The notes below the pieces were generated by a model. The model was given only the letters and a program-made list of their open reading frames with translations. It was not told the DNA's origin and searched no databases. Source: Owenia fusiformis (taxonomy: Eukaryota > Annelida > Polychaeta > Sabellida > Oweniidae). From it: a DNA stretch of 64,000 nucleotides. The stretch spans positions 3,806,571 through 3,870,570 of the forward strand of contig CAIIXF020000011.1 of NCBI GenBank assembly GCA_903813345.2, in the 5' to 3' direction. This document shows, piece after piece, positions 8,930-64,000 of this stretch. The position numbers and the translations under genes are program-made. Numbering within the stretch: position 1 is the stretch's first letter; every line of letters starts with the position of its first letter.

Positions 8930-8939
8930 TAAAGCAAAT

Positions 8940-13144: not shown

Positions 13145-13410
13145 TGCACCCCGTTTTCAATACATCCACGGATAGTTCAACTCGTTTTAAAAACGTCACT
13201 AGTAGGATTGTAGTAAGACAATCCCGTTCGTAAATTACGTCAAGCTCGTCTTAACGTTGTCACTCGTTCTGATTGGAGAATGTGAAGACCATCAGAACAT
13301 TATGAGCATGTTCTAAGATCTGAGGACCTACCCGTTCGTTCGTTCACATACGTTCAAATGTTAGTACACAGTTTAGCCCCGTTTTCGAGAACTCAGTGAG
13401 AACTCTGCAA
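13145..13410 (+). mobile_element. Diverged fragment of the 808-bp element family
   Basis: Matches the right half of copy A: CACTAGTAGGATTG, GTTGTCACTCGTTCT, GAGGACCTACCCGTTCG and CCCCGTTTTCGAGAAC appear in the same order. The terminal GGTGTGATAG is lost, and there are several small indels. It is older than copies A-C. Confidence 0.7.
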
Positions 13411-13617
13411 ATCAATAGTGGAGTGGTCTCACGTATGAAAACTTGAGACATCTGGAATCAAATATGGTGGCATGCTGAACAAAAAAAAGATCAAATTGAA
13501 CGATACCTTTCAGCTTAACAATAAACATCACAAAATGTGAATACCAAGAAGACATTCACATTGACTTAGCATAGTGTATGGTATTATTTTTGCTTCTTTA
13601 TTCATTAAATTCAAATA

Positions 13618-14360
13618 TATTCGATATATGAAATATAATATTCGCTAAATCATTTTCCATTCGGTAAAAACTAAGTTTTCAAAACAGCCAATCGCTTAAT
13701 ATTATGTGCATTAAATTACATATTTTATTCGCTAAACGATATGTTTTTTGCGTATATTGTTATGGTATTCCTTAACAGTAACACATGCACAATATTGAAT
13801 TTCTATTTGAACCCTACCGAAATAAGTTTGCCTATATTTACCAAATGGTTTATTTTTCTATGACATAGTTAATGCATTTTATCGAAAGCTAATTTGCTAT
13901 TTACCGTATGCAATAAAGTAATATTCGATAACTTTCGTTGTTGTTCGATATTTTGTCACGTGACCTCGAGATTTGCAAAATGGCCGCGCAGCTATTCTTC
14001 ATCGTTCAAATATATCACCTGACTGAAAGTCTCGTAAAGTATCGAATAATAACGAAATTTATCGAATGTGGCATTCGGTATTTACCGAATATAAATAATT
14101 TAAATACGGAATGTACAAACAATTGAATTATACGTGCGTTTAGGAAAACCAATAGATTCGCTGCATCACACAAATACATGTACACAGTGTATAAATATCA
14201 AATGTGAATGCCAACACAAAGAACAATTGAAACTATTTAGCGAATATAAATTGTACAGATTATTACAGTCGATAAAATAAAAAAACATTCGATAGATTGG
14301 GTAAAGGTTTAGTAAATTGTTTGTTTTATTTGGTATTTATGGAATATTTAATGTACCGAA
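13618..14360. other. AT-rich island dense in TTCGNTA motifs
   Basis: The heptamer TTCGNTA, or its complement TANCGAA, occurs 15 times in about 740 bp: 13620, 13641, 13660, 13728, 13815, 13880, 13924, 13944, 14040, 14060, 14074, 14083, 14238, 14288 and 14354. Both orientations are present. Several near matches lie between them. There is no coding frame. Confidence 0.6.
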
Positions 14361-15741
14361 TAGAGAAGCAGACTTTGTTTAAACACCATAATAGTGATGC
14401 ACTTAGATTTATCCTACATAATACAGTAGATATACAGGATAATGCATCTTATGTTTCGAAGAAAATTTTAACTTTTTCTGAGCTGTCAATGCAACATTTG
14501 GCTTCAACATCTTCTTTGACATATTTATTTTCTTAAACTGTATGGATAAACTATCAATATCAGCATTAAGAAGTGTAAATTCAGTTAAAAGTTTCAAAAA
14601 AGGGGAAATCCACGTTTAAAAGCCCATGCTCCCACCAAGGGTGCTCTAACATACATAGCATTATGTTCTTGGTTCATAAGACTAACAAGGACAAACAATG
14701 TTGTGATGCTGCTATTGTCTTCAATATACTTTTTTATTATTATGCATTATCATGCTCACAAATGTAAAAATAACGCTGAAAGCATTGGACATCATTCCAT
14801 CGATCGCCATTATCACCCCAAATGAGCGTGCATGGTTCTAGATTGCCCTTGTGATATTTGGACGGCTGGCCATGTTGCCAATTCGTATAGCCCCCTGCAA
14901 CTGCATTACCCTTGGTCCAATATTGTTGGTTTTTGCCAATAGAGTTTGCTCCTTTTTAAAGACAACACAAATAACGAATAGATCATGAAGGCATATTGAT
15001 ATGTTAAATGTTACCCGTTCAAACATAGTTATATTCCAGAACAAAGAATAAGTGCTTATACTGGTTCAAAAAGGTATTACTCCATGGTATGAAATTTCTA
15101 GGACGTCTAATTAAGGAGTTGGTGGCACCATATATGCATAATGATATTTGAGCTTATATTTAGATACCTACATGTGTCCCGCGTTTTATTTTTGTATAGC
15201 CGTGATAAATACGGCGGGCTTTTAGGGCGAATAATGCATGTCATTATCAGGGGTCAAAAAACGTGTAAAAAGTTTTTCGTATTTTTTTCATAATTTAATT
15301 TTGCGGTACGTGTTCCTTAAAATACCTTATTATATAAAAAATCAATGTTTCAACATTTTATGTCGTTTTGGAGATATTGGTGAAGCAATCAATAAATTGG
15401 CACCTTTATTACCTGTGAATAACATATGGTTATAATATGTCAGTTTTTTTACTAAATTAGTTGTAATACATTTTGAGATATGGACTGCCGTATTCAGGGG
15501 TCAATTGCCAATAAAGGGAGACTCGTTGTTCTTCCTTGCCTTATACCGTCTGCGATTGAAAATTGTTGCATATGGTTGAACATGAATTGGTTGCTTATAT
15601 AAGGACCATATCATCAACATTTGATTGACTGCATGGATCTTTGAGAAATGTCGGCAATCATGTAAAAATGACAAATATAATTGTTATATTATACTGTTTG
15701 TTACACATTAATAAAAAATCAGAATTCTGAAGTAACAAAAC
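14361..15741. other. Intergenic, one shared repeat segment
   Basis: No gene recognised. A segment around 15121-15153 (GTGGCACCATATATGCATAA and flanks) recurs inverted at about 19526-19558, so it belongs to a dispersed repeat. Confidence 0.35.
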
Positions 15742-23325: not shown

Positions 23326-23405
23326 CTGGCGACGAGGATAAAGTTACCTCCATGTCAATATCGATATTCACTATATTCTGGACTGTATAACACCCAGTAA
23401 GTACC

Positions 23406-24338
23406 ATGGCTGACGGTGAAGAACAGACATATCCAATTCGTGACTTTAATTTGAACTTAAAGTTCCAACATTTTGATGACTCTGTTGAGAGTGTGGATAT
23501 ATACTTCGAAAGGCTAGATCAATATTTCGAGGCAGCAAATTTAAGACCAACAGACGATAAAATTGTGCCATTAACATTGACATTGATCGGTGCAAAAATG
23601 TACAAAACCCTAAGAGATTTATCAACACCAAAGCGTCCACATGAACTGTCATATGGACAGATAAAAGACACACTGATTAAACATTACTCTCCGAAACCTC
23701 TTATTATAGCGGAACGTTTCAAATTCTATAAAAGAGATCAGGATTCGACAGAGTCATTTGCGGAATATACTGGAATCATCAAAGCCATGGCGGACAAATG
23801 TGACTTTGGGAATTTTCTCCCACAAGCCTTACGTGATAAACTGGTTTGTGGTATCGCAGATGAAAATATTCAGAAGCGACTGTTGAATGATGACATGTCA
23901 TTCCAACAAGTGTATGAAAAGGCTGTAACTATGGAGTTAACATATTCAAATATTAAGGAGATGCAGTCACCTTCTGCAGTGAAAAGTCCTACAGTGAACA
24001 GATTAAAGGATGTTGGAAAGAAGGACTATAAATATGATAAATCCTGTTACAGATGTTTGGGCAAAGGTCACAATAGTGATGAGTGTTACTTCAAAAATGA
24101 GAAATGTCATAGATGTTCACGCGTTGGTCATATTAAAAAGGCATGTAACAACAGAACACTGAAAGATTCAAAGTTTAACCACAAGAAGAAGTCAAAAGGT
24201 AGATATCGTAAACACAATGTTAAGTCTGTCGATGCCGACGATCACGACAGATCTACTTCAGACAGTGATTCAGACAGTGAACTGTACTATATAAAGGTGA
24301 ACAGTATTTCTAGTAAGAGATTAACCCCCATAAAATAA
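23406..24338 (+). CDS. gag: Gypsy Gag (capsid and nucleocapsid)
   Basis: An intact 310-residue frame. The first two thirds resemble the retrotransposon gag capsid domain (the helical region from YFERLDQYF to ERFKFYKRDQDS and FAEYTGII). Two CCHC zinc knuckles follow (CYRCLGKGHNSDEC and CHRCSRVGHIKKAC), then a basic tail. Gag forms the virus-like particle and packages element RNA. The TAA that ends it is in the same frame as the protease that follows only one codon later, so gag and pol are separated by a single stop rather than by a shift. Confidence 0.9.
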   Translation: MADGEEQTYPIRDFNLNLKFQHFDDSVESVDIYFERLDQYFEAANLRPTDDKIVPLTLTLIGAKMYKTLRDLSTPKRPHELSYGQIKDTLIKHYSPKPLIIAERFKFYKRDQDSTESFAEYTGIIKAMADKCDFGNFLPQALRDKLVCGIADENIQKRLLNDDMSFQQVYEKAVTMELTYSNIKEMQSPSAVKSPTVNRLKDVGKKDYKYDKSCYRCLGKGHNSDECYFKNEKCHRCSRVGHIKKACNNRTLKDSKFNHKKKSKGRYRKHNVKSVDADDHDRSTSDSDSDSELYYIKVNSISSKRLTPIK

Positions 24339-24341
24339 TCA

Positions 24342-26195
24342 TTGTCGGTGAATGGACAACATGTTGAGTTTGAAGTTGACACGGGGTCAGCGTTTTCTAT
24401 TATGTCAAAGAAAATGGCTGATGACAGATTAAATGACATTGATGTGACACCATGCAGTTTAAAACTGTATACGTACACTGGAGAACAGATAAAAGATGTT
24501 AGCGAAACTACAGTCAAAGTTGAAACAGGCAGTGGCTCGAAGGATTTACGCTTATTATTAGTGCCAAATGATGGACCACCACTACTAGGCCGTGATTGGC
24601 TTCAACATGTAAAGTTAGATTGGACTCAGATTAAAAATGTACATGGATCAAGTAATCAGCCAAAAGAGCTGAGATCTGTACTGAAGAAACATGATAAACT
24701 GTTCAATGAAACTATTGGATGTATGAAAGGATTCAAAGCAACATTCAAGCCCAAGGGTGGTAGTACTCCTCAGTTTCGTAAACCGTAACCTGTACCGTAC
24801 GCTTTGCGGGGTAAAATGGAAGAGGGCTTGAAGAAAATGGAAACTATGGGAATTATTTCTCCAGTGGCTCAGAGCGAATGGGCTACACCATGTTTTCCCA
24901 TATTAAAAGGCAATGGCTCAGTTCGCATATGTGGTGACTATAAATCTACATTGAATCCGGTGCTTGAAGATAATTCGTATACCATGCCTGTCATTGAGGA
25001 CATATATGCAAACTTAGGGCATGGCGAAAAATTCACCACACTGGATTTAGGTAATGCGTTTACCCAGATCGAATTATCGGAGGATACTAAGATGTATACT
25101 ACAGTCAACACGTGTAATGGATTATACGTCTACAATCGTCTCAATTATGGTACCAAAGTGGCCCCAGCGATTTTCCAAAGGGCAATGGATTCTATTCTGC
25201 GTCCTTTACCCGGAGTATCGTGTTATTTGGACGATATAATTATCACAGGCAGAGATGATAAAGAACATTTGGAGAATCTCAACAAAGTGCTACAAGTATT
25301 GGAGGATCATGATTTGAGATTGAATAAATCAAAGTGTAATTTCATGCAGAAATCAGTCTCATATTTAGGTCATGTGATTGATAAAGATGGCCTACATAAA
25401 TCTGAGGAAAAAGTGAAAGCTATTGTGAATATGCCAAGACCACAGGATAAAGCTGGTCTTCGCTCATTTCTTGGAAAAGTTCAATATTACAACAAGTTTA
25501 TTCCAAAATTGTCTACAATTATCGGTCCACTCAATGGATTACTACACAAAGATGCCGAATGGAATTGGAATTCTCAGTGTGAGGAAGCATATCTCAAGTG
25601 TAAAGAAATATTAGCTTCAGATCTTGTGCTGACACACTTTGATCCAAATCTCCCCATAAAGTTGGATACAGATGCATCAATGAAGGCTGTCAGAGCCGTA
25701 ATTTCACATATCATGCCCGACAAATCGGAACGTCCCATTGCATATGCCTCTAAATCACTCAACAGTACTCAGTGCAACTACAGCATGATTGATAAAGAAG
25801 CTTATGCCATTATATGGGCACTCAAAAAATTTAACATGTATTTATATGGCCGCGAATTCGCCATAGTTACTGATCATAAACCCCTTCTTAATATATTCGA
25901 TCCATCGAAGGCTACATCAGTGATGGCCTCCGCACGATTGCAACGATGGTCATTGCAACTACAAGGATATAATTACAGGATTGAATATCGTAACACTCGT
26001 GAGCATACAAATGCTGATACACTGAGTAGATTGCCGTTACCAGATAAGGACTCTGATAAACCCGATACTCAGACATTATTCTACATATCTCAGATTGACG
26101 CTTTACCAGTAGATGCTATGCAAATTGCCAAAGAGACGATATTACCAAGTACAATACAGAGTTGTATTCATATTATACAAAACGCCATGAAATGA
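24342..26195 (+). pseudogene. pol: Gypsy pol: protease, reverse transcriptase, RNase H (interrupted)
   Basis: In frame with gag. The aspartic protease shows VDTGSAFS near 24377. An in-frame TAA at 24786-24788 falls in the normally conserved KP.PVPYALR linker at the start of RT. RT then continues with WATPCFPILK, LDLGNAFTQIEL and the catalytic YLDD near 25220. RNase H follows (LDTDAS, TDHKPL, NADTLSRLP). The frame ends at 26195, although homology has by then moved to another frame. The catalytic residues of all three domains are present, so damage is limited to the stop and the frame change. Confidence 0.9.
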
Positions 26196-27487
26196 CACTA
26201 CAAAGTGATTGCATTATGTGGGGTATTAAAGTGATTGTTCCTGCAAAACTTCGACATTTGATATTAAGTGAACTACATACCGGACACTTAGGCATAGTCC
26301 GCATGAAAGCCCTAGCTCGTAGTCATGTCCACTGGTATCACATTGATAATGACATTGACAATTTAGCCAAATCTTGTCATGGTTGTAGCGAAAATGCACG
26401 TCAACCAAGACTTGCACCACTTCACCTTTGGGAGTGGCCTGAAGACCCATGGAAGCGTATTCACGTGGATTACGCGGGACCCATATTTGGAAGCATGCAC
26501 TTAATTGTTGTCGACGCTTACAGTAAATGGCCAGATGTTGTAGGAACTAAATCTACAACTCCTAGTGCTACTATTGAACTGTTAAGACCACTTTTTGCAC
26601 GATATGGATGTCCCGAACAATTAGTCTCAGATAACGGACCACAATTTGTCAGCGATGAATTCGAACACTTTATGAAGGCTAATGGTATTCGTCACATTAC
26701 CAGTAATCCAATGCACCCAGCCACAAATGGGCAGGCAGAAAGACTTGTGCAGTCTTTTAAACATTCGTTGAAATGTATGAAATATGAGTCTGGAAACACC
26801 CAACAGAAGTTATGTAAATTTCTCTTAAGCTGCAGAAATGCACCACATGCTCTTACAGGGCAGACACCAGCATCGTTATTTCTCAAACGTAATTTGAGAA
26901 CACGTCTCACATTGGTAAAACCAAATCTCAAAAATCGTGTCATTCAACGTCAAACAACTGAATCACAGCTACGTCTTGGTCCATACAGAGAGTACCAAAT
27001 TGGACAAAATGTCTTAGCCAGAGACTATAGAAATCGTGGTAAGAAATGGGCTGAGGGAACAATTATTGCAAGAGCAGGCCCTCTGAGCTACATGATTGAA
27101 ATAGATAACGGACAAGTATGGCGCAGACATATTGATCAAATTCAGTTTGGTGGCTGCGGACCACTTAATATGCCCGACAACCTAATACCAGATGTACAAG
27201 TTGCAAACCCTCTAGTTGCACCTACTGTACTATTACCTCCAGTGATTTCACCTGCTGAAGTTACAACTCCAGTTTTGAGACCAGATCCAATGCCAGCTAC
27301 ACCTTCCAAGGTTAAAGATATTCCTCAGCGGCAGAATAAATCACATTCTCAATCTAAGCCAGATATGTCCCTTGATAGCTCTACTGTGGATAAATCATTG
27401 CGAAATTCATCCCCAAGTCCTATCGGGAAGTATAATCTCAGACGTGACAGAAAACCACCAGTTAGATATGGTTGGAAGAACATTTAA
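26162..27487 (+). CDS. Gypsy integrase domain (frameshifted from RT)
   Basis: Starts in a different frame from RT/RNase H, with homology resuming at RHEMTLQSDCIMWG, so a frameshift near 26165-26190 separates the two. It has the HHCC zinc module (HTGHLG...KSCHGC), the DDE core (HVDYAGP near 26465, SDNGPQF near 26627, NGQAER near 26734) and a C-terminal Pro/Ser-rich tail of about 120 residues without a chromodomain. The integrase reading frame itself is intact. Confidence 0.9.
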   Translation: MYSYYTKRHEMTLQSDCIMWGIKVIVPAKLRHLILSELHTGHLGIVRMKALARSHVHWYHIDNDIDNLAKSCHGCSENARQPRLAPLHLWEWPEDPWKRIHVDYAGPIFGSMHLIVVDAYSKWPDVVGTKSTTPSATIELLRPLFARYGCPEQLVSDNGPQFVSDEFEHFMKANGIRHITSNPMHPATNGQAERLVQSFKHSLKCMKYESGNTQQKLCKFLLSCRNAPHALTGQTPASLFLKRNLRTRLTLVKPNLKNRVIQRQTTESQLRLGPYREYQIGQNVLARDYRNRGKKWAEGTIIARAGPLSYMIEIDNGQVWRRHIDQIQFGGCGPLNMPDNLIPDVQVANPLVAPTVLLPPVISPAEVTTPVLRPDPMPATPSKVKDIPQRQNKSHSQSKPDMSLDSSTVDKSLRNSSPSPIGKYNLRRDRKPPVRYGWKNI

Positions 27488-50279: not shown

Positions 50280-50384
50280 TGTATAAAATGGTAATTCTAC
50301 AAAACAGTACACAAAAACATCAGATCAGATCAATGCTTTTGCTGTACAAATGGTAGTAGTATACGGCGGGCCTTTCGACCTACA

Positions 50385-50545
50385 ACCTGCACCTGCACCA
50401 TACACCATGGTGCACCGGAAGTGGTGCACCGGAAGTGACGTCATAGATCACGTGGTAAGATGGTGCACCGGAAGTGACTGCACCGGAAGTGGAAGTGACG
50501 ACATAGGTCACATGGTTACTGATATAACTGGTCAAGGTTACTGAT
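50385..50545 (+). promoter_or_regulatory. Cluster of ETS, CRE and E-box motifs in the outer left arm
   Basis: ACCGGAAGT (ETS consensus) occurs four times between 50414 and 50492, TGACGTCA (CRE) at about 50436, and CACGTG at about 50450. A composite ACCGGAAGTGGAAGTGACGTCA recurs at about 51003-51025. These are classic animal promoter motifs; their function here is not shown. Confidence 0.5.
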
Positions 50546-50689
50546 AAGAGAGAGATAATAAACTGATATCACACTGAAAAAGATGGTCAAAGGTTACTGA
50601 TAATTGATAAGAGAGAGGTAATAAACTGATAAGACAGTGAAAAACATGGCCAAAGGTTACTGATAATTGATAAGAGAGAGATAATAAAC

Positions 50690-51413
50690 TGATAAGACAG
50701 TGAAAAGATAACTACCATGGTTTCTGATATAACTGGACAAAGGTTATATTGATAAAAGAACATAGGTTTGAGTTGAATGCACAGAAATGATGTCATACGT
50801 CACATGGTTACTGATATAACTGGTCAAAGGTTACTGATAACTGATAAGAGAGAGCTCAATTGATTAGATAATCAAACAAACACTGTTAAGGTAACCTGGT
50901 GACTATGTGATAAGCTATCTTGTCTACTTCATGGATGTTTCATTGTTATAGGTCAAAGGTGGATAACAAACTGATAAAACAGTAAAAAAGATAAGACGAT
51001 GTACCGGAAGTGGAAGTGACGTCATAGGTCACATGGTTACTGATATAACTGGTCAAAGGTTACTGTAATTGATAAGAGAGAGATAATAAACTGATAAGAC
51101 AGTGAAAAAGATAACTACCATGGTTTCTGATATAACTGGACATAGGTTACTGATAATTGATAAAAGAACATAGGTTTGAGTTCTATGCCCAATGCACAGA
51201 AATGATGTCATGGGTCACATGGTTACTGATATAACTGGTCAAAGGTTACTGATAACTGATAAGAGAGAGCTCAATTGATAAGATATTCAAACAAACACTG
51301 CAAAGGTAACCTGGTGACTATGTGATGAGCTATCTTGTCTAGTTCATGGATGTTTCATTGTTATAGGTCAAAGGTTGATAACAAACTGATAAAATAGTAA
51401 AAAAGATAACTGC
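50690..51413. repeat. 402-bp direct tandem duplication in the left arm
   Basis: ATAACTACCATGGTTTCTGA at 50708 recurs at 51110, and the following sequence (GATAAAAGAACATAGGTTTG, AACCTGGTGACTATGTGAT, GATGTTTCATTGTTATAGGT) repeats in the same order at an offset of about 402 bp. Confidence 0.85.
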
Positions 51414-52369
51414 AGAACCATTTCAACCAAACAGGTTTTAGCTTGCAGAATTATTTTAACCAATCAGAGTACAGTAATTTTTAACCAATCAGGTTTTGAC
51501 TTGCAGAATCATTTTAACCAATCAGGGCACAGTATGTTTGGATTATTTTAACCAATTATGTTTAGAGTTTCAGAATAATTTTAACCAATCGGGTTGCGGT
51601 ATATTCTCATCCAATCAGATAAAAGAAAATCACCCAATAGAGGAGAATTTCTGCACAATTTAACAAGTTCAGACAGGTATTGAATATTTATAACCAAAAA
51701 GTCTCCTGAGTTATTTTAGAATATTTTTAAATTGTCAAGTTGATCAATTTGTGCTAATTTTTTCTCCAAACGATTACTTGATTCTTACTTTGGAGTCATT
51801 TTAGAATATTTTTCCAATCTTCACGCTTGAGTGATTTTCGCTTATTTCTTGAGTTTGAGGTATTTAATCACCAAATGGACACAGTATTCTTACTCCCGAT
51901 ACATTTAAGAGCATTTTTACAATTTTCACGCTTGAGTGATTTTTGGTGATTCCTGGAGTTTGAGGCATTCTTTTACCAAACGATCACTTGATTCTTACTC
52001 CTGGGTCATTTTAAAGTATTTTTTGAAGTGTCACGTTTCGGCGATTTCAGTCACTGTTGATCGATTTCTGCTAATTTTTGGAGTTTAAGCCATTTTCACA
52101 AAATAGACACCCACCCACTATACAAAATAACACGCTTTAATAGGCATCTGTTAATTTAACATGCCACTGATAAAAATATAAACACCTACAAGATAAATAA
52201 TAAAAAATGCTAACGTTAACAGTTTTACAGCAGAACATTTTCGACCAATCAAAGTGTATATGCAAATGAGCTGCAGAACCATTTCAATCAATCAGATCAG
52301 ATTATTGCACTCTTCGACCCCACCACCGCCGCCGCCACCGCCGCCGCCACCGCCGCCGCCGCCGCCACC
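51087..52369. repeat. Left inverted repeat of the ATPase element
   Basis: Complement of 54521-55809 with very few differences; the clearest is a small indel near 51677-51690 against 55183-55205. It holds eight CCAAT or CCAAA boxes at 51427-51638 and ends inward in (CCG)n at 52319-52370. Confidence 0.93.
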
Positions 52370-52417
52370 TTTTGTGCCTTTATCATATTTTATTCAACAG
52401 AGGGATGTATTAAAACT

Positions 52418-52425
52418 ATATAAGT
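52418..52425 (+). promoter_or_regulatory. TATA box of the ATPase gene
   Basis: TATATAAG lies 59 bp upstream of the ATG at 52477 and just inside the left inverted repeat. A TCATTCATTCAGCG initiator-like segment lies about 30 bp downstream. Confidence 0.7.
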
Positions 52426-52476
52426 GAAAAGCAGGCTTGATTCATTCATTCAGCGCAACCTCATCTACGTGGCAAC

Positions 52477-53913
52477 ATGGATTATATTTGCTCCGTGTGT
52501 TCTGGCACATTTGCCAGGAAGGATATTCTTCTGAGACATATGAGAAACATTCACAAAAAAGATGAGACTAACTTCGATCTCGACTCACCTATACAGTTCA
52601 GGCATCCATTTACTAAAATTGTTGCAGGTCCTACTGGATGTGGAAAGACAACCTATGTTGTCGACCTTATTGATAGAGCCGAACAATTAATCAATCCACC
52701 ACCACAAAGAATAGTATGGTTCTTCAAACAATGGCAGCCTTTGTATGCAGAAATAAAGAGAAAACAGCCTCATATCGAGTTTGTTATGGGACTTTGCGAT
52801 GACTTGATGAAGCCCGATTACTTCGATGGAAATGTGACCAATTTGGTTGTGATAGATGACCTCATGGCGGACCTTAACAAGGCAGTTACATTGCTATACA
52901 CAGTGGGTTCTCATCACAAAAATATATCCATTATCACGCTACAACAAAATATTTTCCCACCCAATGGAGAAAGCAGAACAATGAGCTTAAACAGCCATTA
53001 CTTGGTTCTGTTCAAGAACCCGAGGGATCAAAGACAGATAAGTGTTTTGGCATCTCAAATGTATCCTGGAAAGACACATATTTTACTTGACATTTACAGA
53101 CAAGCTACGGAAAATCCATTTGGTTACTTAGTGGTGGATCTGAAGCAAGAAACTGAAGATGGTTCGAGGCTTAAGCCTAATGCATTGCAGCAAGTTGCAG
53201 AAAGTGTTCCATATACATCATTTCAACATTTTTATAACACGGCAGGGAGCTCCACTGCTCAACAGAGGCAAGATATGTCGGAATTCCGACCAAATACCAT
53301 TGTTCAACCAACTCAGATGGATGCTACGTATCCAGGTCTAATGGATGATGTTACTCTAAGAAACCCCTCCGTTTTACATCTCCCCCATTGTAAAGACTGT
53401 GGAACAGTGTTGATTACCACAAAACATGCAGACATACATCAAAAATATTGCCAATATGAAGACTCTGGTAAAAATGAACCCCATGCTGAAGATTTGAAGG
53501 AAAATTATACATTTTCTACTCTGAAGCAGAACGTGTTGGATGTATTGAAAAAAGAAGCTGACACTTTGTATGAAAAATACACTACCAGGGGATTACCAGA
53601 GAAGGAAATTACTCAAAAGCTCAAAGCAAAACTTTATCCCAAAGCAAAATCTGAGTTTTTAAATGACTATGGTGAAATTCTGAGGTTATTTATTGAAGTC
53701 AAAGATGCCGATGTACATCGAGAAATAGTAGAAGAAATTGAATTCTTAGTTGATCAAGACATGTCTCTGTCGAGAGCTATCAGAAAAACTTTGGCCAAAT
53801 ATTCTTATATCGCTGATGAAATGTTTAACGATGAAGCGTCTATTGACGGACATGATTCAGAAGATACAGATACATCTGGTGAGATGGAAGAAGAACGTAG
53901 TGAGATTTTGTGA
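52477..53913 (+). CDS. FtsK/HerA (A32-like) packaging-type ATPase with N-terminal C2H2 finger
   Basis: An intact 478-residue frame. A C2H2 zinc finger (C5, C8, H21, H26) is followed at residues 51-58 by a Walker A motif GPTGCGKT. Walker B is LVVIDD at 123-128, and a polar TLQQN strand at 154-158 sits where the sensor lies in FtsK/HerA ATPases. A second Cys/His cluster (C305, C308, H317 or H321, C325) follows. The C-terminal third is helical and ends in an acidic Ser/Thr/Glu tail. Enzymes of this family pump DNA into viral capsids (poxvirus A32, Polinton and adintovirus ATPases). Here the ATPase domain is about 220 residues, and the fused fingers suggest DNA-end recognition, which is inference. 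TATA promoter upstream; the second gene follows 60 bp downstream. All catalytic motifs are intact. Confidence 0.88.
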   Translation: MDYICSVCSGTFARKDILLRHMRNIHKKDETNFDLDSPIQFRHPFTKIVAGPTGCGKTTYVVDLIDRAEQLINPPPQRIVWFFKQWQPLYAEIKRKQPHIEFVMGLCDDLMKPDYFDGNVTNLVVIDDLMADLNKAVTLLYTVGSHHKNISIITLQQNIFPPNGESRTMSLNSHYLVLFKNPRDQRQISVLASQMYPGKTHILLDIYRQATENPFGYLVVDLKQETEDGSRLKPNALQQVAESVPYTSFQHFYNTAGSSTAQQRQDMSEFRPNTIVQPTQMDATYPGLMDDVTLRNPSVLHLPHCKDCGTVLITTKHADIHQKYCQYEDSGKNEPHAEDLKENYTFSTLKQNVLDVLKKEADTLYEKYTTRGLPEKEITQKLKAKLYPKAKSEFLNDYGEILRLFIEVKDADVHREIVEEIEFLVDQDMSLSRAIRKTLAKYSYIADEMFNDEASIDGHDSEDTDTSGEMEEERSEIL

Positions 53914-53973
53914 ATGAACGTTCCGTAGTCCCTTTTAGTCACTACGATGAGAATATAAAGAGAAACCTTAGAC

Positions 53974-54408
53974 ATGAGCATCATATATTTGAGAGAAACT
54001 GAGGAAGCAACAATGCCTAAGATAGTGCCTTATGTGGATGACCCAGAAGTGTGGAAGAAGTTTATACGAGCCCAGGTAGAAGGTAGAGTCATAGAACACG
54101 CTGGATATGGTAGGCGAGGAAAACTCAAGTGGATACCAGTGTCATCAGTCCGCGAACCAATTGTTCAACACGTCAGTCCCACTGAAGCTGTTTATCAGAG
54201 GGCAAAGGCAGAAATTGACAAGCAGCAGAAAGAAATGGCTGAACGGGATCTGCCATCAAAGAGAGTTTACAGACAAATGAGTGACAATGATTCCTTTGAC
54301 CACACCTATAATGGAAATGTGATGAATAGACTTTTTAAGAAACCTAAGAAAAAGAGGGATGTTATGGTGTATTCTGGCCCACCTGGAAAACGTCAACGCA
54401 GACAGTGA
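53974..54408 (+). CDS. 144-aa basic protein paired with the ATPase
   Basis: An intact frame 60 bp after the ATPase stop, same strand. A second ATG at 54013 (giving MPKIVPY) may be the real start. It has an early DDPEVWKKF segment, a central helical EIDKQQKEMAERD segment, and a strongly basic tail with a nuclear-localisation-like KKPKKKR and final GKRQRRQ. Size and charge suit a DNA-binding core or packaging co-factor, but I recognise no family. AATAAA at about 54460 could serve both genes. Both frames are open between arms that have stayed nearly identical, which argues for recent activity. Confidence 0.75.
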   Translation: MSIIYLRETEEATMPKIVPYVDDPEVWKKFIRAQVEGRVIEHAGYGRRGKLKWIPVSSVREPIVQHVSPTEAVYQRAKAEIDKQQKEMAERDLPSKRVYRQMSDNDSFDHTYNGNVMNRLFKKPKKKRDVMVYSGPPGKRQRRQ

Positions 54409-54459
54409 TCATCAACAATGGACTATGAAATAATTTGTATAAATGACAATATGTATATT

Positions 54460-54465
54460 AAATAA
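54460..54465 (+). terminator. Polyadenylation signal AATAAA
   Basis: Located about 50 bp after the stop of the 144-aa gene, before the right inverted repeat. Confidence 0.6.
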
Positions 54466-54520
54466 ACAACTAAAGCACTAAAATGCATTTTACTGTTATT
54501 GTTGGGTTGTTGTTGATAGT

Positions 54521-55809
54521 GGCGGCTGTGGCGGCGGCGGCAGCGGCGGTGGCGGCGGCGGCGGTGGTGGGGTCGAAGAGTGCAATAATCTGATCTGATT
54601 GATTGAAATGGTTCTGCAGCTCATTTGCATATACACTTTGATTGGTCGAAAATGTTCTGCTGTAAAACTGTTAACGTTAGCATTTTTTATTATTTATCTT
54701 GTAGGGGTTTATATTTTTATCAGTGGCATGTTAAATTAACAGATGCCTATTAAAGCGTGTTATTTTGTATAGTGGGTGGGTGTCTATTTTGTGAAAATGG
54801 CTTAAACTCCAAAAATTAGCAGAAATCGATCAACAGTGACTGAAATCGCCGAAACGTGACACTTCAAAAAATACTTTAAAATGACCCAGGAGTAAGAATC
54901 AAGTGATCGTTTGGTAAAAGAATGCCTCAAACTCCAGGAATCACCAAAAATCACTCAAGCGTGAAAATTGTAAAAATGCTCTTAAATGTATCGGGAGTAA
55001 GAATACTGTGTCCATTTGGTGATTAAATACCTCAAACTCAAGAAATAAGCGAAAATCACTCAAGCGTGAAGATTGGAAAAATATTCTAAAATGACTCCAA
55101 AGTAAGAATCAAGTAATCGTTTGGAGAAAAAATTAGCACAAATTGATCAACTTGACAATTTAAAAATATTCTAAAATAACTCAGGAGATATAAATATAAA
55201 TTATAAATATTCAATACCTGTCTGAACTTGTTAAATTGTGCAGAAATTCTCCTCTATTGGGTGATTTTCTTTTATCTGATTGGATGAGAATATACCGCAA
55301 CCCGATTGGTTAAAATTATTCTGAAACTCTAAACATAATTGGTTAAAATAATCCAAACATACTGTGCCCTGATTGGTTAAAATGATTCTGCAAGTCAAAA
55401 CCTGATTGGTTAAAAATTACTGTACTCTGATTGGTTAAAATAATTCTGCAAGCTAAAACCTGTTTGGTTGAAATGGTTCTGCAGTTATCTTTTTTACTAT
55501 TTTATCAGTTTGTTATCAACCTTTGACCTATAACAATGAAACATCCATGAACTAGACAAGATAGCTCATCACATAGTCACCAGGTTACCTTTGCAGTGTT
55601 TGTTTGAATATCTTATCAATTGAGCTCTCTCTTATCAGTTATCAGTAACCTTTGACCAGTTATATCAGTAACCATGTGACCCATGACATCATTTCTGTGC
55701 ATTGGGCATAGAACTCAAACCTATGTTCTTTTATCAATTATCAGTAACCTATGTCCAGTTATATCAGAAACCATGGTAGTTATCTTTTTCACTGTCTTAT
55801 CAGTTTATT
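54521..55809. repeat. Right inverted repeat of the ATPase element
   Basis: Complement of 51087-52369. It begins with (CGG)n at 54519-54575, carries the CCAAT boxes as ATTGGTTAAAA, and stops at CAGTTTATTA where GACTCCAG (Helitron-like 5' end) starts. The left arm continues TATCTCTCTC at the matching point, so the right arm is interrupted here. Confidence 0.93.
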
Positions 55810-57895
55810 AGACTCCAGATTGAAAATCTGGAGTCTATTGTTTTTGCCAGTATTCTTCTTCTTATTATTATTAGACTCCAGATGTCAATCTGGAGTCTAT
55901 TGTTTTCGTCAGTATTCTTCTTATTATTATTCTTTATTATTAGACTCCAGATTGAAAATCTGGAGTCTATTGTTTTTGCCAGTATTCTTCTTATTATTCT
56001 TATTCTTATTATTCTTTAGGAGTTTTTTCAATAACTATGAGGTATCCAGTAAGGACCATAATACAGTTTATTTAGGTTCAGTATCTAGTTGGTGGGAAAT
56101 TGGGTCAATTTTTTATCTAGGTCAAAGGTCAAGAACTAGGTCAAATCCAGTACTTTGTCACTTTTTTCGATTTTCTCGGTCGTCCTTCAATATTTTGGAT
56201 CCGGTTTTTTTTCATTGTGTTCCTCATAAAAAAGTAGAAAATCTAGGGTCGATTTAGTTTTTTGGTATCTCAAACCGATTTCGAGATATCAGTGTCCGAA
56301 AACGAGGTCCAAAAAAAAGTTCTCCTAATCCAATGTCCAGGATATCAGTCTTATAGGACATTTTCTCAGGATTCCGAATCTGAAAACCAAATTTCGATCT
56401 GACTTCCGGTTCAGAAGTTATGGCGTTTTGAAAATTCAAAAATCGCTAAATTTGGTGCCCCATGTTAATTCAATGGGAAAAAATATTTTTTTGAAGTGTA
56501 AAATACGAGATATAGACTAAGCACAGCTAAACATAATGGAAGCCCATAGAAGAAAGGGACCTCAAAACCTTCTTTTCATAAAAATTTGGACACCAAAATG
56601 CCTAGGTCAAAATCTAGGTCAAATTCAAAGTTTTTCCTTATTTTTGCGATTCTGACACTACAGATTAATTATATTCTTCGAAATTTTGTATACATGTAGC
56701 CAAGAGTGTGCTAATAGTGTTAGCCTTTTGCCGTCAGAAAGTATTCCGACCCACTTTAGAGATATGGTGTCCGAAAAGTAGGTCAAAATAAGAAATTCTC
56801 CAAATTTAACGTTTGAGTTATGAATTAAGTATAGAATTTTCTCAGGAATCCGAATCTGCAAACCAAATTTCGATCCGACTTCCGGTTCGGAAGTTATGCC
56901 ATTTTGAAAGCTCAAAAATCGCTAAATTTGGTGCCCCATGTTATGTCAATGGGATAAAAGATTTTTTTGAAGTGTAAAATACGAGATATAGACTAATTAC
57001 AGCTTAAAATAATGAAAGCCTATGAAAGAAGGGGACCTCGAAGGCTACCCAACTTCAAAATTTGGACAACAAAATCCCTAGGTCAAAATCTAGGTCAAAT
57101 TCATAGTTTTTCCTTATTTTTGCGATTCTGACACTATATTTAAATGATTTGCTTCAAAATTTTGTATACAGGTAGGAAAGAGTGTGCTAATAGTGTTAGC
57201 CTCTTGCCGTCAGAAAGTATTTCGACCCACTTTTAAGATATGGTGTCCGAAAAGTAGGTCAAAAAAAAGTTCTCCAAATTTAACATATGAGTTATGAATT
57301 AAGTGTAGAATTTTCTCAGGAATTCGAGTCTGCAAACAAAATTTCGATCCGACTTCCGGTTCCGAAGTAATGGCGTGTCCAAAAAGTAGGTCAAAATAAA
57401 AATTCGCCAAATTTAACGTATGAGTTATGAATTAGGGGTAGAATTTTGTCAGGAATCCGAATCTTTAAATCAAATTTAGATCCGACTTCCGGTTCGGAAG
57501 TTATGGCGTTTTGAAATTTCGGAAAATCGATCTGATGGTATCCTGATAGAAAGTCAAGAGTAGAGAAGAAAATATTGAAAAATTCATCCATCCTTCCTAT
57601 CTGATCCTATCCTATCCTTCCTATCTATCCTTCCTTCATATCCTTTCCTTCCTATCCTTCCTATCCTCTCCTATCATATCCTTTCTTCATATTCTGTTCT
57701 ATCCTATTCTTCTTTCTTATTCTATCCTATCGTTCCTTCCCATTCTATCCTATCCTACCTTCCTATTTTATCCATCCATCTTATTCTGGATGACTCCGCT
57801 TATTCTGGATGACTCGGCTTATTTTAGATGACTGGGCTTAAAAAAGTCTAGATCTGGAGTCTGAAATTGAACTTCGTTCAATTTCCAAAGTCTAG
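55808..57895 (+). mobile_element. Helitron-like unit 1 (with triple 5' fold-back)
   Basis: The 5' block AGACTCCAGATTGAAAATCT (continuing GGAGTCT) is a hairpin and is present three times (55810, 55872, 55942), each followed by ATTGTTTT(T/C)G(C/T)CAGTATTCTT and an ATT-rich microsatellite. The body has tandem core repeats of 476 bp, then a (TATCCTTCC)n microsatellite at 57590-57775. The 3' end is ATCTGGAGTCT, then the hairpin GAAATTGAAC-TTC-GTTCAATTTC, then CTAG at 57892-57895. A 3' hairpin followed by CTAG, plus this block order, fits non-autonomous Helitron/Helentron elements (the HINE or 'pearl' type of bivalves). Confidence 0.7.
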
Positions 57896-59600
57896 TTCTT
57901 ATTATTCTTTTTCTATCCCAGTTTTCTCAATAACCATAAGGTCTTCAGTAAAGTCAATCATTTGGGTAATTTAGGTCCAGTATCTAGTTCCTGGGAAATT
58001 GGGTCAAATTTTTATCTAGGTCAAAGGTCAAGAACTAGGTCAAATTCAGTACTTTGTCACTTTTTTCGATTTTCTCGGTCGTCCTTCAATATTTTCGATC
58101 CGGGTTTTTTTCATTGTGTTCCTTATAAAAAAGTAGAAAACCTAGGGTCGATTTAGTTTTTTGATATCTCAAACCGATTTTGAGATATCAGTGTCCGAAA
58201 ACGAGGTCCAAAAAAAAGTTCTCTGAATCCAATGTCCAGGATATTAGTCTTATAGGAAATTTTCTCAGGATTCCGAATCTGAAAACAAAATTTGAATCAG
58301 ACTTCCGGTTCTGAAGTTATGGCGTTTTGAAAGCTCAAAAATCGCTAAATTTGGAACCCATGTTAAGTCAATAGGAAAAAAGATTTTATTGAAGTGAAAA
58401 ATACGAAATATAGACTGAGTTCAGCTAAATATAATGAAAGCTTTTAAAAGAATGGGACCTCAAAAGCCATCTAGCTTTGAACTTTGGACACCAAAATGCC
58501 TAGGTCAAAATCTAGGTCAACTCAAAAATTTTTCCTTATTTTTGCGATTCTGACACTACAGATTAATTATATTCTTCGAAACTGTGTTTACATGTAGCCA
58601 AGAGTGTGCTAATAGTGTTAGCCTTTTGCCGTCAGAAAGTATTTTGCCCCATTTTTGAGATATGGTGTCCGAAAAGTAGGTCAAAATAAAAAATTCTCCA
58701 AATATGACGTTCGAGTTATGAATTAAGTATAGAATTTTCTCAGGAATCCGAATCTGTAAACCAAATTTCAATCCGACTTCTGGTTCGGAAGTTATGACAT
58801 TTTGAAAGCTCAAAAATTGCTAAATTTGGTGCCCCATGTTATGTCAATGGGAAAAAAGATTTTTTTGAAGTGTAAAATACAAGATATAGACTAATTACAG
58901 CTTAAAATAATGAAAGCCTCTGAAAGAAGGGGACCTCGAAGGCTACTTAACTTCAAAATTTGGACACCAAAATCCCTAGGTCAAAATCTAGGTCAAATTC
59001 AAGGTTTTTCCTTATTTTTGCGATTCTGACACTACAGATTAATTATATTCTTCGAAATTTTGTATACATGTAGCCAAGAGTGTGCTAATAGTGTTAGCTT
59101 TTTGCCGTCAGAAAGTATTTTGCACCACTTTTGAGATATGGTGTCCGAAAAGTAGGTTAAAATAATAAATTCTCCAAATTTAACGTTTGAGTTATGAATT
59201 AAGTAAAGAATTTTCTCAGGAATCCGAATCTACAAATCAAATTTCGATCCGACTTCCGGTTCCGAAGTTATGGCGTGTCCGAAAAGTAGGTCAAAATAAA
59301 AATTCGCCAAATTTAACGTATGAGTTATGAATTAGGGGTAGAATTTCGTCTGGAATCCGAATCTTTAAATCAAATTTCATCATATCCTTTCTTCTTATTC
59401 TGTTCTATCCTATCCTTCTTTCTTATTCTATCCTATCGTTCCTTCCTATTCTATCCTATCCTACCTTCCTATTTTATCCATCCATCTTTTTCTGGATGAC
59501 TCAGCTTATTTTGGATGACTCGGCTTATTCTGGATGACTCGGCTAAAAAAAGTCTAGATCTGGAGTCTGAAATTGAACTCGTTCAATTTCCAAAATCTAG
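57896..59600 (+). mobile_element. Helitron-like unit 2
   Basis: Follows the previous CTAG directly, starting TTCTTATTATTC and CCCAGTTTTCTCAATAACCA. It has the same order as unit 1: DR1-like AGGTCAAAGGTCA at about 58017, 476-bp cores, (TATCC)n at 59385-59480, 3' hairpin, CTAG at 59597-59600. It lacks the 5' fold-back, as expected for an internal member of a head-to-tail array. Confidence 0.7.
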
Positions 59601-61012
59601 TTATTTTTCTTTCCCAGTTTTCTCGATAACCATAAGGTTTCCAATAAAGATCATTATTCAGTTAATATATGTCCAGTATCTAGTTCCTCGGAAATTGGGT
59701 CAAATTTTTATCTAGGTCAAAGGTCAAGAACTAGGTCAAATCCAGTACTTTGTCACTTTTTTCGATTTTCTCGGTCGTCCTTCAATATTTTCGATCTGGG
59801 TTTTTTTCATTGTGTTCCTTATAAAAAAGTAGGAAACCTAGGGTCGATTTAGTTTTTTGATATCTCAAACCGATTTCGAGATATCAGTGTCCGAAAACGA
59901 GGTCCAAAAAAAAGTTCTCTGAATCAAATGTCCAGGATATTAGTCTTATGGGAAATTTTATCAGGATTCCGAATCTGAAAACGAAATTTAAATCTGACTT
60001 CCGGTTCGGAAGTTATGGCGTTTTGAAAACTCAAAAATAGCTAAATTTGGTGCCCATGTTAAGTCAATGGGAAAAAATATTTTTTTGAAGTGAAAAATAC
60101 GGAATATAGACTGAGTTCAGCTTCATATAATCAAAGCCTTTAAAAGAAGGGGACCTCAAAAGCCATCTAGCTTCACAATTTGGACACCGAAATGCCTAGG
60201 TCAAAATCTAGGTCAAATTCATAGGTTTTCCTTATTTTTTCGATTCTGACACTACACTTTAATTATATTCTTCGAAATTGTGTATACATGTAGCCAAGAA
60301 TATGCTAATAGTGTTAGCCTTTTGCCGTCAGAAAGTATTTTGACCCACTTTTGAGATATGGTGTCCGAAAAGTAGGTCAAAATAAAAAGTTCTCCAAATT
60401 GAATATATGAGTTATGAATTAAGAGTAGAATTCTGTCAGGAATCCAAATCTGCAAACCAAATTTTGATCCGACTTCCGGTTCGGAAGTTATGGTGTGTCC
60501 GAAAAGTAGGTCAAAATAAAAAATCTCCAAATTAAACATATGAGTTATGAATTAGGGGTAGAATTCTGTCAGGAATCCGAATCTGCAAATCAAATTTCGA
60601 TCCGACTTCCGGTTCGGAAGTGATAGCGTTTTGAAATTTCGAGAAAAATCGATCTGATGGTATCCTGATAGAAAGTCAAGAGTAGAGAAGAAAATATTGA
60701 AATATTCATCCATCCTTCCTATCTCATGCTACCCTATCCTTCCTATCTATCCTTCCTTCATATCTTTTCCTTCTTATCCTTCCTATCCTATCCTATCCTT
60801 TCTTCCTATTCTATTCTATCCTATCCTTCTTTCTTATTCTATCCTATCCTTCTTTCCTATTCTATCCTATCCTACCTTCCTATTTTATTTATCCATCTTT
60901 TTCTAGATGACTCAGCTTGTTCTGGATGACTCGGCTTATTCTGGATGACTCGGCTAAAAAAAGTCTAGATCTGGAGTCTGAAATTGAACTTCGTTCAATT
61001 TCAAAAATCTAG
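59601..61012 (+). mobile_element. Helitron-like unit 3
   Basis: Begins TTATTTTTCTTTCCCAGTTT. One full core plus partial core, (TATCC)n at 60700-60895, 3' hairpin and CTAG at 61009-61012. At 1.41 kb it is shorter than its neighbours because it has fewer core repeats. Confidence 0.7.
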
Positions 61013-63230
61013 TTATTAGACTCCAGATGTCAATCTGGAGTCTATTGTTTTTGCCAGTATTCTTCTTCTTTATTCTTATTCTTATTATTAGACTCCAGAT
61101 GAAAATCTGGAGTCTATTGCTTTTGCCAGTTTTCTTATTATTATTATTAGACTCCAGATTGAAAATCTGGAGTCTATTGCTTTTGCCAGTTTTCTTATTA
61201 TTATTATTCTTTCTTTGCGCGTTTTCTCAGCAACTAGAGGGACTTTCTGAAATCTGCTTACATGGTTAAATAGGTAATGAGACCTAGTTTCTGGGAAATT
61301 AGGTCAAATTTTTATCTAGGTCAAAGGTCAAAATCTAGGTCAAATTATCATTTTGTCAATTATCTCTGTCATTTTTCAATATTTTTTCAATTTTTTTTTT
61401 TCAACGTGTAGCCAAGAAAAAGACGATTCGACGGTGAGTAATCAATTTTTTGATTACTTTTACCGATTTTGAGATATTGCGTCCGGAAAGTAGGTCGAAC
61501 GAAAAAGTTCTCCAAATTCAACGTATGAGTTATGAAATAAGTGTAAAATTTCCTCAGGAATCTAAATCTGCAAACCAAATTTCGATCTGACTTCCGGTTC
61601 GGAAGCTATAGCGTTTTGAAATTGCTAAATTTGGTGCCCATGTAAAGCCAATGGGAAAAAAGACTTTTTCGAAGTGTAAAATACAAGATATAGACTGAGC
61701 ACAGCTTAACATAATGAATGCCCATAAAAGAAGGGGACCTCAAAAGCTACCTAGCTTCAAAATTTGGACACCAAAATGCCTAGGTCAAAATCTAGGTCAA
61801 ATTCATAGTTTTTCCTTATTTTTGCGAATCTGGCACTACACTTTTAGGATTTGCTTCAAAATTTTGTATACAGGTAGCAAAGAGTGTGCTAATAGTGAGA
61901 GCCTTTTGCCGTCAGAAAGTATTTTGACCCACTTTTGAGATATGGTGTCCGTAAAGTAGGTCAAAATAAAAATTTCTCATAATTTAACTTATGAGTTATG
62001 AATTAAGGGTAGAATTTTCTCAGGAATCCGAATCTGCAAACCAAATTTCAATCCGACTTCCGGTTCGAAAGTTATGGCGTTTTGAAAGCTCAAAAATCAC
62101 GAAATTTGTGTCCAATGTTAAGTCAATGGGAAAAAATATTTTTTTGAAGTGTAAAATACGAGATATAGACTGCGTATAGCTTAGCATAATGAATGCCTGC
62201 ACAAGAAGGGGACCTCAAAAGCTACCTAGCATCAAAATTTGGACACTAAAATGCCTAGGTCAAAATCTAGGTCAAATTCATAGTTTTTCCTTATTTTTGC
62301 GATTCTGACACTACACTTTAATAATTTACTTCAAAATTTTGTATACAGGTAGCAAAGAGTGTGCTAATAGTGTTAGCCTTTTGCCGTCAGAAAGTATTTT
62401 GACCCACTTTTGAGATATGGTGTCCGAAAAGTAGGTCAAAATAAAAAGTTCTCCAAATTTAACATGTGAGCCATGAATTAAGGGTAGAATTTTCCCAGGA
62501 ATCCGAATGTGTAAACCAAATTTCAATCCGACTTTCGGTTCGGAAGTTATGGCGTTTTGAAAGCTCAAAAATCGCTAAATTTGGTGCCCTATGTTATGTC
62601 AATGAGAAAAAATATTTTTTTGAAGTGTAAAATACCAGATATAAACTGAGTACATCTTAACATTCTGAAAGCCTATAAAAGAAGGAGACCTCGAAGGCTA
62701 TCTAGCTTTAAAATTTGGACACCAAAATGCCTAGGTCAAAATCTAGGTCAAATTCGTAGTTTTTCCTTATTTTTGCGATTCTGACATTACACTTTAATGA
62801 TTTGCTTCGAAGTTTTGTATACAGGTAGCAAAGAGTGGGCTTATAGTGTTAGCCTTCTGCCGTCAGAAAGTATTTTGACCCACTTTTGAGATATGGTGTC
62901 TGAAAAGTAGGTCAAAATAAAAAATTCTCCAAATTTAACGTATGAGTTATGAATTAAGGGTAGAATTTTCTCAGGAATCAGAATCTTTAAACCAAATTTC
63001 GATCCAACTTCTGATTAGAAAGTTATAGCGGTTTGAAGTCTCGAAAAGTCGATATGATGATATCCCCATGTTAAGCCAATGGAGTCGAAGATAACATCGT
63101 CTAAATGTCTATATTCTAGCTGACTCAGCTTATTCTGCATGACTCAGCTTACAGTTTTTCGGATGACTCACCTTAAAAAAAGTTTGAAATCTGGAGTCTT
63201 AAATTGAACTTGTTCAATTTACATGTCTAG
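61013..63230 (+). mobile_element. Helitron-like unit 4 (with triple 5' fold-back)
   Basis: Starts with three 5' fold-backs (61018, 61088, 61149), as in unit 1, then GCGCGTTTTCTCAGCAACTA, three core repeats (markers at 61909, 62384 and 62860), no TATCC microsatellite, a weaker 3' hairpin (AAATTGAAC-TT-GTTCAATTT) and CTAG at 63227-63230. Confidence 0.7.
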
Positions 63231-64000
63231 TTATTATTCATTCTTTCTTTCTTTCTTTCCGAACACTTTTTCTCAGCAACTAGAAGAACTGACTTTAACC
63301 TACTTACATGGCTAACATAGCCCATCAACCTAGTTTCTGGGAAATTAGGTCAAATTTTTATCTAGGTCAAAGGTCAAGAACTAGGTCAAATTTAGGTAAA
63401 ATTAACATTCTGTCAATTATCTTCGTTGTTACTTGAGGTAACTCCTTCATCTTTTTTTCAACATGTAGCTTAGAAAAAAACAAATCGAGAGTGTGCCATC
63501 CGTTTTTTGATAACTCTTAGCGATTTTGAGATATGGCGTCCGGAAAGTAGGTCAAACTAAAAAAGTTCTCCAAATTTAGCATATGAGCTATGAAATAAGG
63601 GTAGAATTTTCTCAGGAATCCGAATCTGCAAACCAAATTTCGATCCGACCTCCCGTTCGGATGTTATGGCGATTTGAAAGCTCAAAAATCGCTAAATTTG
63701 GTGCCCCATGTTAAGTCAATGGGAAAAAAGACTTTTTTTAATTGTAAAATATGAGATATAGACAGAGTGCAGCTTAACATAATGAATTCCTATAAAGGAA
63801 GGGTACCCAAAAGCTACCTAGCTTCAAAATTTGGACACCAAAATCCCAAGGTCAAAATCTAGGTCAAATTGATAGTTTTTCCTAATTTTTACGATTCTGA
63901 CACTACACTTAAATGATTTGCTTCTAAATTTTGTATACAGGTAGCAAAGAGTGTGCTAATAATGTTAGCTTAATTGCCGTCAGAAAGTATTTTGACCCAC
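63231..64000 (+). mobile_element. Helitron-like unit 5, cut by the window end
   Basis: Starts TTATTATTCATTCTTTC and continues with TCTCAGCAACTAG, the AGGTCAAAGGTCA word near 63365 and one core repeat. The right end lies outside the window. Confidence 0.65.

Follow-up and report, generated by a model that had tools for sequence, protein, structure and literature searches.

Polintons, also called Mavericks, are described in the relevant part of PMC4028283 as elements of 15–20 kb whose ATPase is of the genome-packaging type of double-jelly-roll viruses. The portion of PMC8097293 that treats vertebrate Mavericks gives them (AGT)2//(ACT)2 ends and 6-bp target-site duplications (TSDs) and presents Maverick viral particles as unobserved at the time, and an excerpt of PMC11071296 reports an FtsK/HerA-like ATPase in a clam adomavirus-like sequence. 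No satellite of an animal Polinton is described in the open-licence literature as searched by titles, abstract openings and exact phrases (e.g., 'polinton satellite'). We analyzed a 64,000-nt stretch of the genome of the annelid Owenia fusiformis (contig CAIIXF020000011.1, positions 3,806,571 to 3,870,570, forward strand; hereafter, the window), in which an initial annotation had proposed a two-gene satellite, or a reduced Polinton, built around a packaging-type ATPase. We propose that this element is probably a trans-mobilised satellite of capsid-bearing Polintons, with a packaging ATPase of its own and a second gene, ORF2, matched to its helper.

The window copy encodes the ATPase and ORF2 on one strand, both frames intact, between long inverted arms. 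Window self-comparison resolved the arms into two inverted pairs, 51084–51693 with 55201–55810 (610 nt, 100% identity) and 51702–52369 with 54521–55188 (668 nt, 99% identity), with 18 differences over 1290 aligned columns, of which a single indel patch accounts for 10, the GC-rich inner end for 7 and the remaining sequence for 1. The nearly identical 1.29-kb arms reported by the initial annotation are therefore real, and a chance inverted repeat is ruled out by more than 1.2 kb at 99–100% identity. The borders given with them, 50385 and 55809, did not hold: the left terminus, AGTAGTATACGGCGGGCCTTTCGACC, lies at 50355–50380, position 55810 is no end, and the right terminus is found at C11:3876062 (window coordinate 69492), 5.5 kb outside the window. 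Because the true left terminus is 50355, the left terminal inverted repeat (50355–52369, + strand, a self-match) is ~2.0 kb long in full, and its outermost 363 nt pair with the far right end (69130–69492), which is 99.7% identical to the left arm. The same 6 bp, AATGGT, stand outside both termini, at 50349–50354 on the left and at ~69493–69498, past the window, on the right. The inner part of the right terminal repeat (54521–55810, − strand) is cut at 55810 by a secondary insertion, an array of satellite-like repeats recognized by self-matches, which occupies 55811–64000, continues past the window and lies outside the element proper; judged by the arm lengths, this interruption would amount to ~13 kb, with 64001–69129 outside the stretch read. 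Inside the left arm are tandem units of 415, 63, 58 and 105 bp. Both arms (50355–52369 and 54521–55810) are also full of CCGGAAGTGACGTCA-like, CCAAT and TGATAA motifs, by inspection rather than statistics, as in promoter or enhancer DNA.

The ATPase open reading frame (ORF; 52477–53913, + strand, 478 aa), delimited by ORF, domain, alignment and fold analyses, comprises an N-terminal C2H2-type cluster (residues 5–26; C5/C8/H21/H26), an FtsK/HerA-fold core with Walker A at residues 51–58 and a Walker B-type LVVIDD at 123–128, a second zinc-type cluster (305–325; C305/C308/H321/C325), a helical domain and an acidic tail. In a 40-row ATPase alignment the Walker positions were invariant or almost so, and the cluster residues were present in 29–31 rows for the first cluster and in 34–35 for the second, in agreement with the intact, doubly zinc-clustered ATPase that had been annotated. 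The element thus has the FtsK/HerA packaging ATPase typical of Polintons/Mavericks; a fold search led to the STIV/HerA/FtsK neighbourhood, which denotes a common fold, not a function, and hardly covered the helical C-terminal domain. Upstream of the ORF lies a putative TATA-box-like TATATAAG (52417–52424, + strand), and an AATAAA at 54461–54466 (+ strand) is a possible polyadenylation signal common to both genes; the promoter and shared signal claimed earlier are thus present as sequences. ORF2 is small and basic. Its frame (53974–54408, + strand) is intact, as had been claimed, and encodes 144 aa from the ATG at 53974; the protein itself probably begins at the ATG at 54013 (54013–54408, 131 aa), the start shared by its three database relatives, so that the claimed length probably does not stand. 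Two of the relatives, P0121 and P0122, are both from O. fusiformis. The N-terminal domain of ORF2 resembles that of a capsid-bearing Polinton on C138 (see below), and its basic tail carries PPGK.

Further copies of the same design, which the initial annotation had suggested seeking, are numerous. The ATPase search of the Owenia genome returned at least 112 matches, including at least 19 loci 87–100% identical to the window ATPase; these counts are lower bounds because 89 of 264 candidates were scored. We examined 18 of the 19 (17 fetched loci and the window, C9:940437 being left out), and in all 18 ORF2 adjoined the ATPase on its downstream side, with altered tails in L011 and L013. Long inverted repeats were found at 14 of 16 fetched window-family loci (exceptions, L013 and L022), and 14 of the 15 elements with both termini (13 window-family loci, L025 from a second family, and the window copy) had identical 6-bp flanks. 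As in Polintons/Mavericks, which are recognized by (AGT)2 or (AG)3 ends according to PMC8097293, AGTAGTATACGG termini accompany the inverted repeats and 6-bp TSDs. Two-gene elements with matching flanks, the window copy aside, measured 5.05–7.76 kb. The mismatch was L010, where two copies adjoin or are nested and the test did not extend to the outer pair; L018 taken with an alternative left end likewise lacked matching flanks. At L010, two two-gene copies in opposite orientations occupy one outer terminus pair (C10:22410347–22424082), one of them seemingly inserted beside or into the other. The ATPase frame was full-length in 13 of 18 copies. A host gene or domesticated ATPase is ruled out by the many copies, inverted repeats and TSDs.

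None of these copies was found to carry the genes that a Polinton would need for replication, integration or capsid formation. We compared 20 helper proteins, comprising five pieces of the protein-primed DNA polymerase (PolB), three rve integrases, two cysteine proteases, two major capsid proteins (MCPs), two PX proteins, a short ATPase and five small ORFs, with 19 two-gene loci and the whole window by tblastn. All PolB, integrase, protease and MCP queries were among the 19 of 20 without a match, and the sole matching query, the short ATPase, hit the elements' own ATPase, as expected. As controls, the integrase, protease and MCP queries all matched several capsid or polB elements, and PolB_37b, PolB_34c and 34a/34b (the last between L033 and L034) matched outside their own source; PolB_37a and the five small-ORF queries matched their own source only. 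The claim that the element holds nothing else is thus upheld for the parts read, which do not reach the outer portions of L010, L011 and L013 or of the window copy, within borders longer than those claimed, and copies with polB, integrase and capsid genes between the same arms, which would have indicated simple deletion, were not seen by tblastn in the 19 loci or the window. For L022, no left end was located. With one MCP query (94 of 96 candidates scored), the nearest match lay at least 71 kb from the two-gene loci, and none of the 19 had one inside 70 kb. Virophage genes were likewise not detected as MCP, protease or PX matches, the queries being Polinton proteins of the Owenia genome with no separate penton query.

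Same-genome Polintons with matching ends, another suggestion of the initial annotation, were found in two places. The C138 Polinton (L036/L037) encodes a protease (41–42% identical to those of the capsid elements L026 and L027; Peptidase_C5 match below the cut-off), an MCP (60% identical to that of L026), an ORF2 that is P0122 (100% identity), PX, an integrase frame, a short ATPase of 220 aa without zinc clusters, and two PolB-like frames. One of its termini is visible because the contig starts inside the element; this terminus, AGTAGTATATGGCGTCCATTTCGACC, is that of the two-gene copies L013, L019 and L022, and 4 of its 26 bases are not those of the window copy. Over the 482 nt at this end, C138 is 98.5–99.0% identical to both arms of the two-gene copy L021, and other parts of it are ~89–97% identical to the window arms; a DNA comparison with L027, L032 and L035 gave no match. 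The second Polinton spans 13,410 bp at C5:3929–17338. Its termini differ from those of the window copy by 1 and 2 bases, CAGAGC stands on both flanks, its terminal repeats are 96% alike and match the window arms at 93–96% in parts, and an open MCP frame lies at 13081–14409. Like a satellite, the two-gene element has no detected replication or capsid genes and has ends in common with a candidate helper present in the Owenia genome.

Other capsid elements carry the long ATPase. L027 and L026 combine it with an rve integrase (E 8e-12 and 4e-10), an adenovirus-type protease (Peptidase_C5) and an ORF2 directly ahead of a 444–448-aa protein, which we take to be the MCP from its position and from the PY protein of Polintons; Pfam has no family for it, and its named relative is merely a fish 'uncharacterized protein F54H12.2-like'. 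A PX-like protein is encoded by an ORF in L027 and appears as a tblastn match in L026. L028 is 98.5% identical to L027 across the capsid-gene region, and the L027 MCP has nine matches at 95–100% genome-wide. Because the termini of L027 differ from those of the window element, we do not regard it as the helper of that element.

Two of the two-gene families each resemble a particular capsid element in their ends and ORF2. The 85-residue N-domain of the window ORF2 is 79% identical to that of C138, 69% to P0123 (from a contig of 1475 bases, the same length as that of the MCP fragment P0124) and 40–41% to those of the other two capsid elements, and that of the S3 family (L032) is 76% identical to L027 and 43–47% to those of the remaining capsid elements. 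The S3 ends begin with the same 25 bases as L027, AGTAGATAGAAAACTGAGGGCATCA. A capsid element is thus matched by both ends and ORF2. The window ATPase core is 35% identical to that of C138 versus 58% to that of L027 and 49–58% to the other long-type cores compared (L025 against L026, 66%), so that, judging by sequence comparison, the motor clearly does not follow the capsid element in the window family, and less clearly so in S3. Each of the four sampled two-gene families (window, L025, L032 and L035) has a PPG(I/K) motif in the ORF2 tail, which 17 of 18 window-family copies carry (exception, L011), and a motif scan did not find it in ORF2 of L026, L027, L028 or C138/P0122. PPGIPA recurs in nine of 123 proteins scanned, all ATPases (P0039, P0049, P0057, P0059, P0064, P0069, P0072, P0074 and P0109), and it is our guess that the tail motif is a docking signal. 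In L013 (3899–4189), ORF2 has a normal N-domain and a different tail in which PPGI is again present, possibly through module exchange.

Both genes are under constraint between the 98–99% and 92% identity subgroups of the window family, with ratios of nonsynonymous to synonymous substitution rates (dN/dS) well below 1. Neutral evolution of the copies, which would have spoken against a satellite, was not seen: ATPase dN/dS between the window and four full-length copies of the 92% group was 0.209, 0.252, 0.236 and 0.248 (hence 0.21–0.25), and ORF2 dN/dS against five copies of that group was 0.159, 0.162, 0.135, 0.120 and 0.134 (0.12–0.16). The partial copy L019 gave 0.292 for the ATPase, and the disrupted copy L024, whose end is nearer the window's, gave 0.402 for the ATPase and 0.193 for ORF2. 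Inside the 98–99% group, ORF2 values were 0.07–0.15 where defined, except that L011 and L013, with their altered tails, gave 0.83 and 0.73. Between these groups, then, the element's own genes have been kept by selection.

Taken together, the copies, gene content, constraint and shared ends support the satellite proposed by the initial annotation; that it uses a helper's polymerase and capsid is something we infer. Upon helper expression, the protein-primed PolB of the helper would copy the satellite from the shared ends. The satellite ATPase would dock on the helper capsid via ORF2, with its helper-matched N-domain and satellite-type tail, and, competing with the short ATPase of the helper, fill helper capsids with satellite DNA. 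The helper integrase would insert the DNA in trans. Helper dependence and particles, and the action of ORF2 and the ATPase in packaging, are thus predictions. A constrained packaging motor and a helper-matched capsid-cluster protein, kept in a satellite, are indirect evidence that Owenia Polintons package DNA into particles, because the two proteins would otherwise have little reason to stay constrained separately; the elements also offer natural helper/satellite pairs for studying how packaging specificity is set.

Several observations weigh against this interpretation. The satellite is known from genome sequence, not from particles, extrachromosomal DNA, transcripts or mobilisation. The long ATPase occurs in larger elements, both capsid-bearing (L026–L028) and polB-bearing (L033/L034), and is therefore not satellite-specific, and the S3 ATPase core gives a weak contrast (66% to L027's, 71% to S4's). 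The C138 copy looks defective: its PolB is in two separate frames, homologous to the L033/L034 pieces at E 1e-5 to 4e-8, and its integrase frame retains the chromodomain and only the last 240 residues (64% to L026's), the first ~140 being gone. The C5 element was read for its MCP gene only, its intactness being judged no further. ATPase frames are broken or cut in 5 of 18 copies (L016, L018, L019, L024 and L029). Inside the 98–99% group ATPase dN/dS ranged from 0.15 to 1.05, with one value undefined and 0.73 for the partial L029, a range in which selection is unreadable because there are too few changes. The ORF2 structure prediction (mean predicted local distance difference test score, 52.5) yielded no confident model.

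An unlikely alternative is that the element is one segment of a multipartite Polinton-like virus whose elements complement each other without any parasite. Such a division of genes is suggested by an ~8-kb element (L027 2182–9817 and L031 147–420; C1:29.048–29.056 Mb) that carries capsid genes, an integrase and a long ATPase. No polB was detected for it, frames of at least 120 aa having been listed in its flanks: 10 kb of upstream sequence gave none and 7 kb of downstream sequence gave one, of 142 aa. The same division is suggested by L033 (C9:17.50 Mb) and L034 (C2:31.06 Mb), which have polB-like frames, long ATPase and integrase and no capsid gene in the fetched stretch. However, C138 unites polB-like frames, ATPase, integrase, protease and MCP, though in a copy that looks partly broken. 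On C2, two ATPase copies lie 9.66 kb apart in the L034 region.

We consider it improbable, too, that the copies arose passively from a Polinton by internal deletion, their two ORFs being remnants and their mobility due only to the ends they retained. Polinton ends and TSDs are shared, ATPase frames are damaged in some copies as noted, and 5 of 20 terminus pairs (C2:6483291–6487516, C8:28315747–28319655, C5:23701973–23705521, C5:23707423–23710971 and C1:5628746–5629167) have the same ends around 0.4–4.2 kb without the ATPase or MCP of the lists used and are likely gene-poor derivatives. Yet the C138 ATPase is so unlike that of the window, which is closer to other long-type cores, that deletion of the C138 Polinton could not have left the window ATPase; both genes are constrained between subgroups, and further families have this gene pair too, arranged in different orders. 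Least probable is a host-favoured antiviral element whose ATPase and ORF2 poison helper assembly, its own transmission being secondary: ORF2 joins a helper-like N-domain to a different tail, as a dominant-negative partner might, but the matching target duplications, the near identity of the arms and the number of similar insertions suggest that the element spreads.

A broader idea, which we put forward tentatively, is that Polinton satellites arose repeatedly in one animal genome, each joining a long zinc-finger ATPase to an ORF2 with a local-helper N-domain and PPG(I/K) tail, and that, with partial elements bearing polB or capsid genes, they would make up a community of viruses spread over the chromosomes and complementing one another in trans, much as phages and their satellites form networks in bacteria. 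Three changes of the two-gene label are required on the ORF2 tree, forced by the starred branches, with one row on a long branch, and the label is no more clustered there than after shuffling, since 305 of 500 shuffles needed as few changes. The ATPase tree requires two changes, of which the starred branches force only one. The satellite ATPases may have a single origin, and several origins, or module exchange, are likelier because three different gene orders occur. S3 was sampled at one of nine loci and S4 at one of ~15, and the 49%-identity ATPase group is outside the gene-content sample. The fourth ATPase and ORF2 family, at L035 3076–5478 (C5:153900–162300; ~15 related ATPase loci), has convergent genes and a PPGIPA tail; its ends were not found, a 30-nt inverted match there lacking the AGTAGT start.

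Animal-type ATPase frames also occur in bacterial symbiont assemblies, namely L001 (a contig of a Candidatus Thiodubiliella metagenome-assembled genome) and P0005 (a Solemya symbiont record), probably as host contamination. In L001 the ATPase and broken PolB-like frames face each other head-to-head, a reading made largely by eye (one piece, DNA_pol_B_2, E 0.027). For the window itself, a bacterial or viral contig is ruled out by the 498-Mb host genome and by IMG/VR scans without a relative. Elsewhere in the window, translations revealed Ty3/gypsy-type gag-pol frames (23391–27487) and reverse transcriptase frames of the long interspersed nuclear element type (8916–10531).

Compared with known systems, the element is closest to Polintons/Mavericks, with which it shares terminal (AGT)2, inverted repeats, 6-bp TSDs and an FtsK/HerA packaging ATPase, and whose Owenia members have ORF2 relatives directly ahead of the putative MCP gene. 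It differs in size, ~5–8 kb against 13.4 kb in Owenia and the 15–20 kb given in the part of PMC4028283 cited above. It also differs in having no polB, integrase, protease, MCP or PX that we could find and a zinc-cluster ATPase that does not resemble the short C138 ATPase. The foldback transposons FB, Galileo and Tetris likewise have long inverted arms that contain tandem repeats; the Owenia element, in contrast, has Polinton-type termini and a 6-bp TSD, and no transposase family (MULE- or P-type) was found among Pfam matches up to E 1 of the two central ORFs of at least 80 aa, which rules out a foldback transposon in the strict sense. Virophages, which encode their own capsid, and transpovirons are likewise eukaryotic DNA parasites of larger DNA viruses. 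Transpovirons, 7-kb DNA episomes according to an excerpt of PMC7031253, are tied to amoebal giant viruses, whereas the proposed helper here is an animal chromosomal Polinton. Adeno-associated virus is also a small animal DNA element in need of a larger DNA virus, adenovirus, and it has its own capsid and Rep; the Owenia element would take both roles from its helper, keeping only a motor and ORF2. Among phage satellites, P4 is a small element that redirects the capsid assembly or packaging of its helper phage. Phage-inducible chromosomal islands such as the Staphylococcus aureus pathogenicity islands do likewise, as part of PMC12409344 describes for the latter. The Owenia element, in which an ATPase and ORF2 module would play this part, differs from them in being an animal chromosomal element with a Polinton-type helper, inverted-repeat ends and an integrase presumably supplied in trans.

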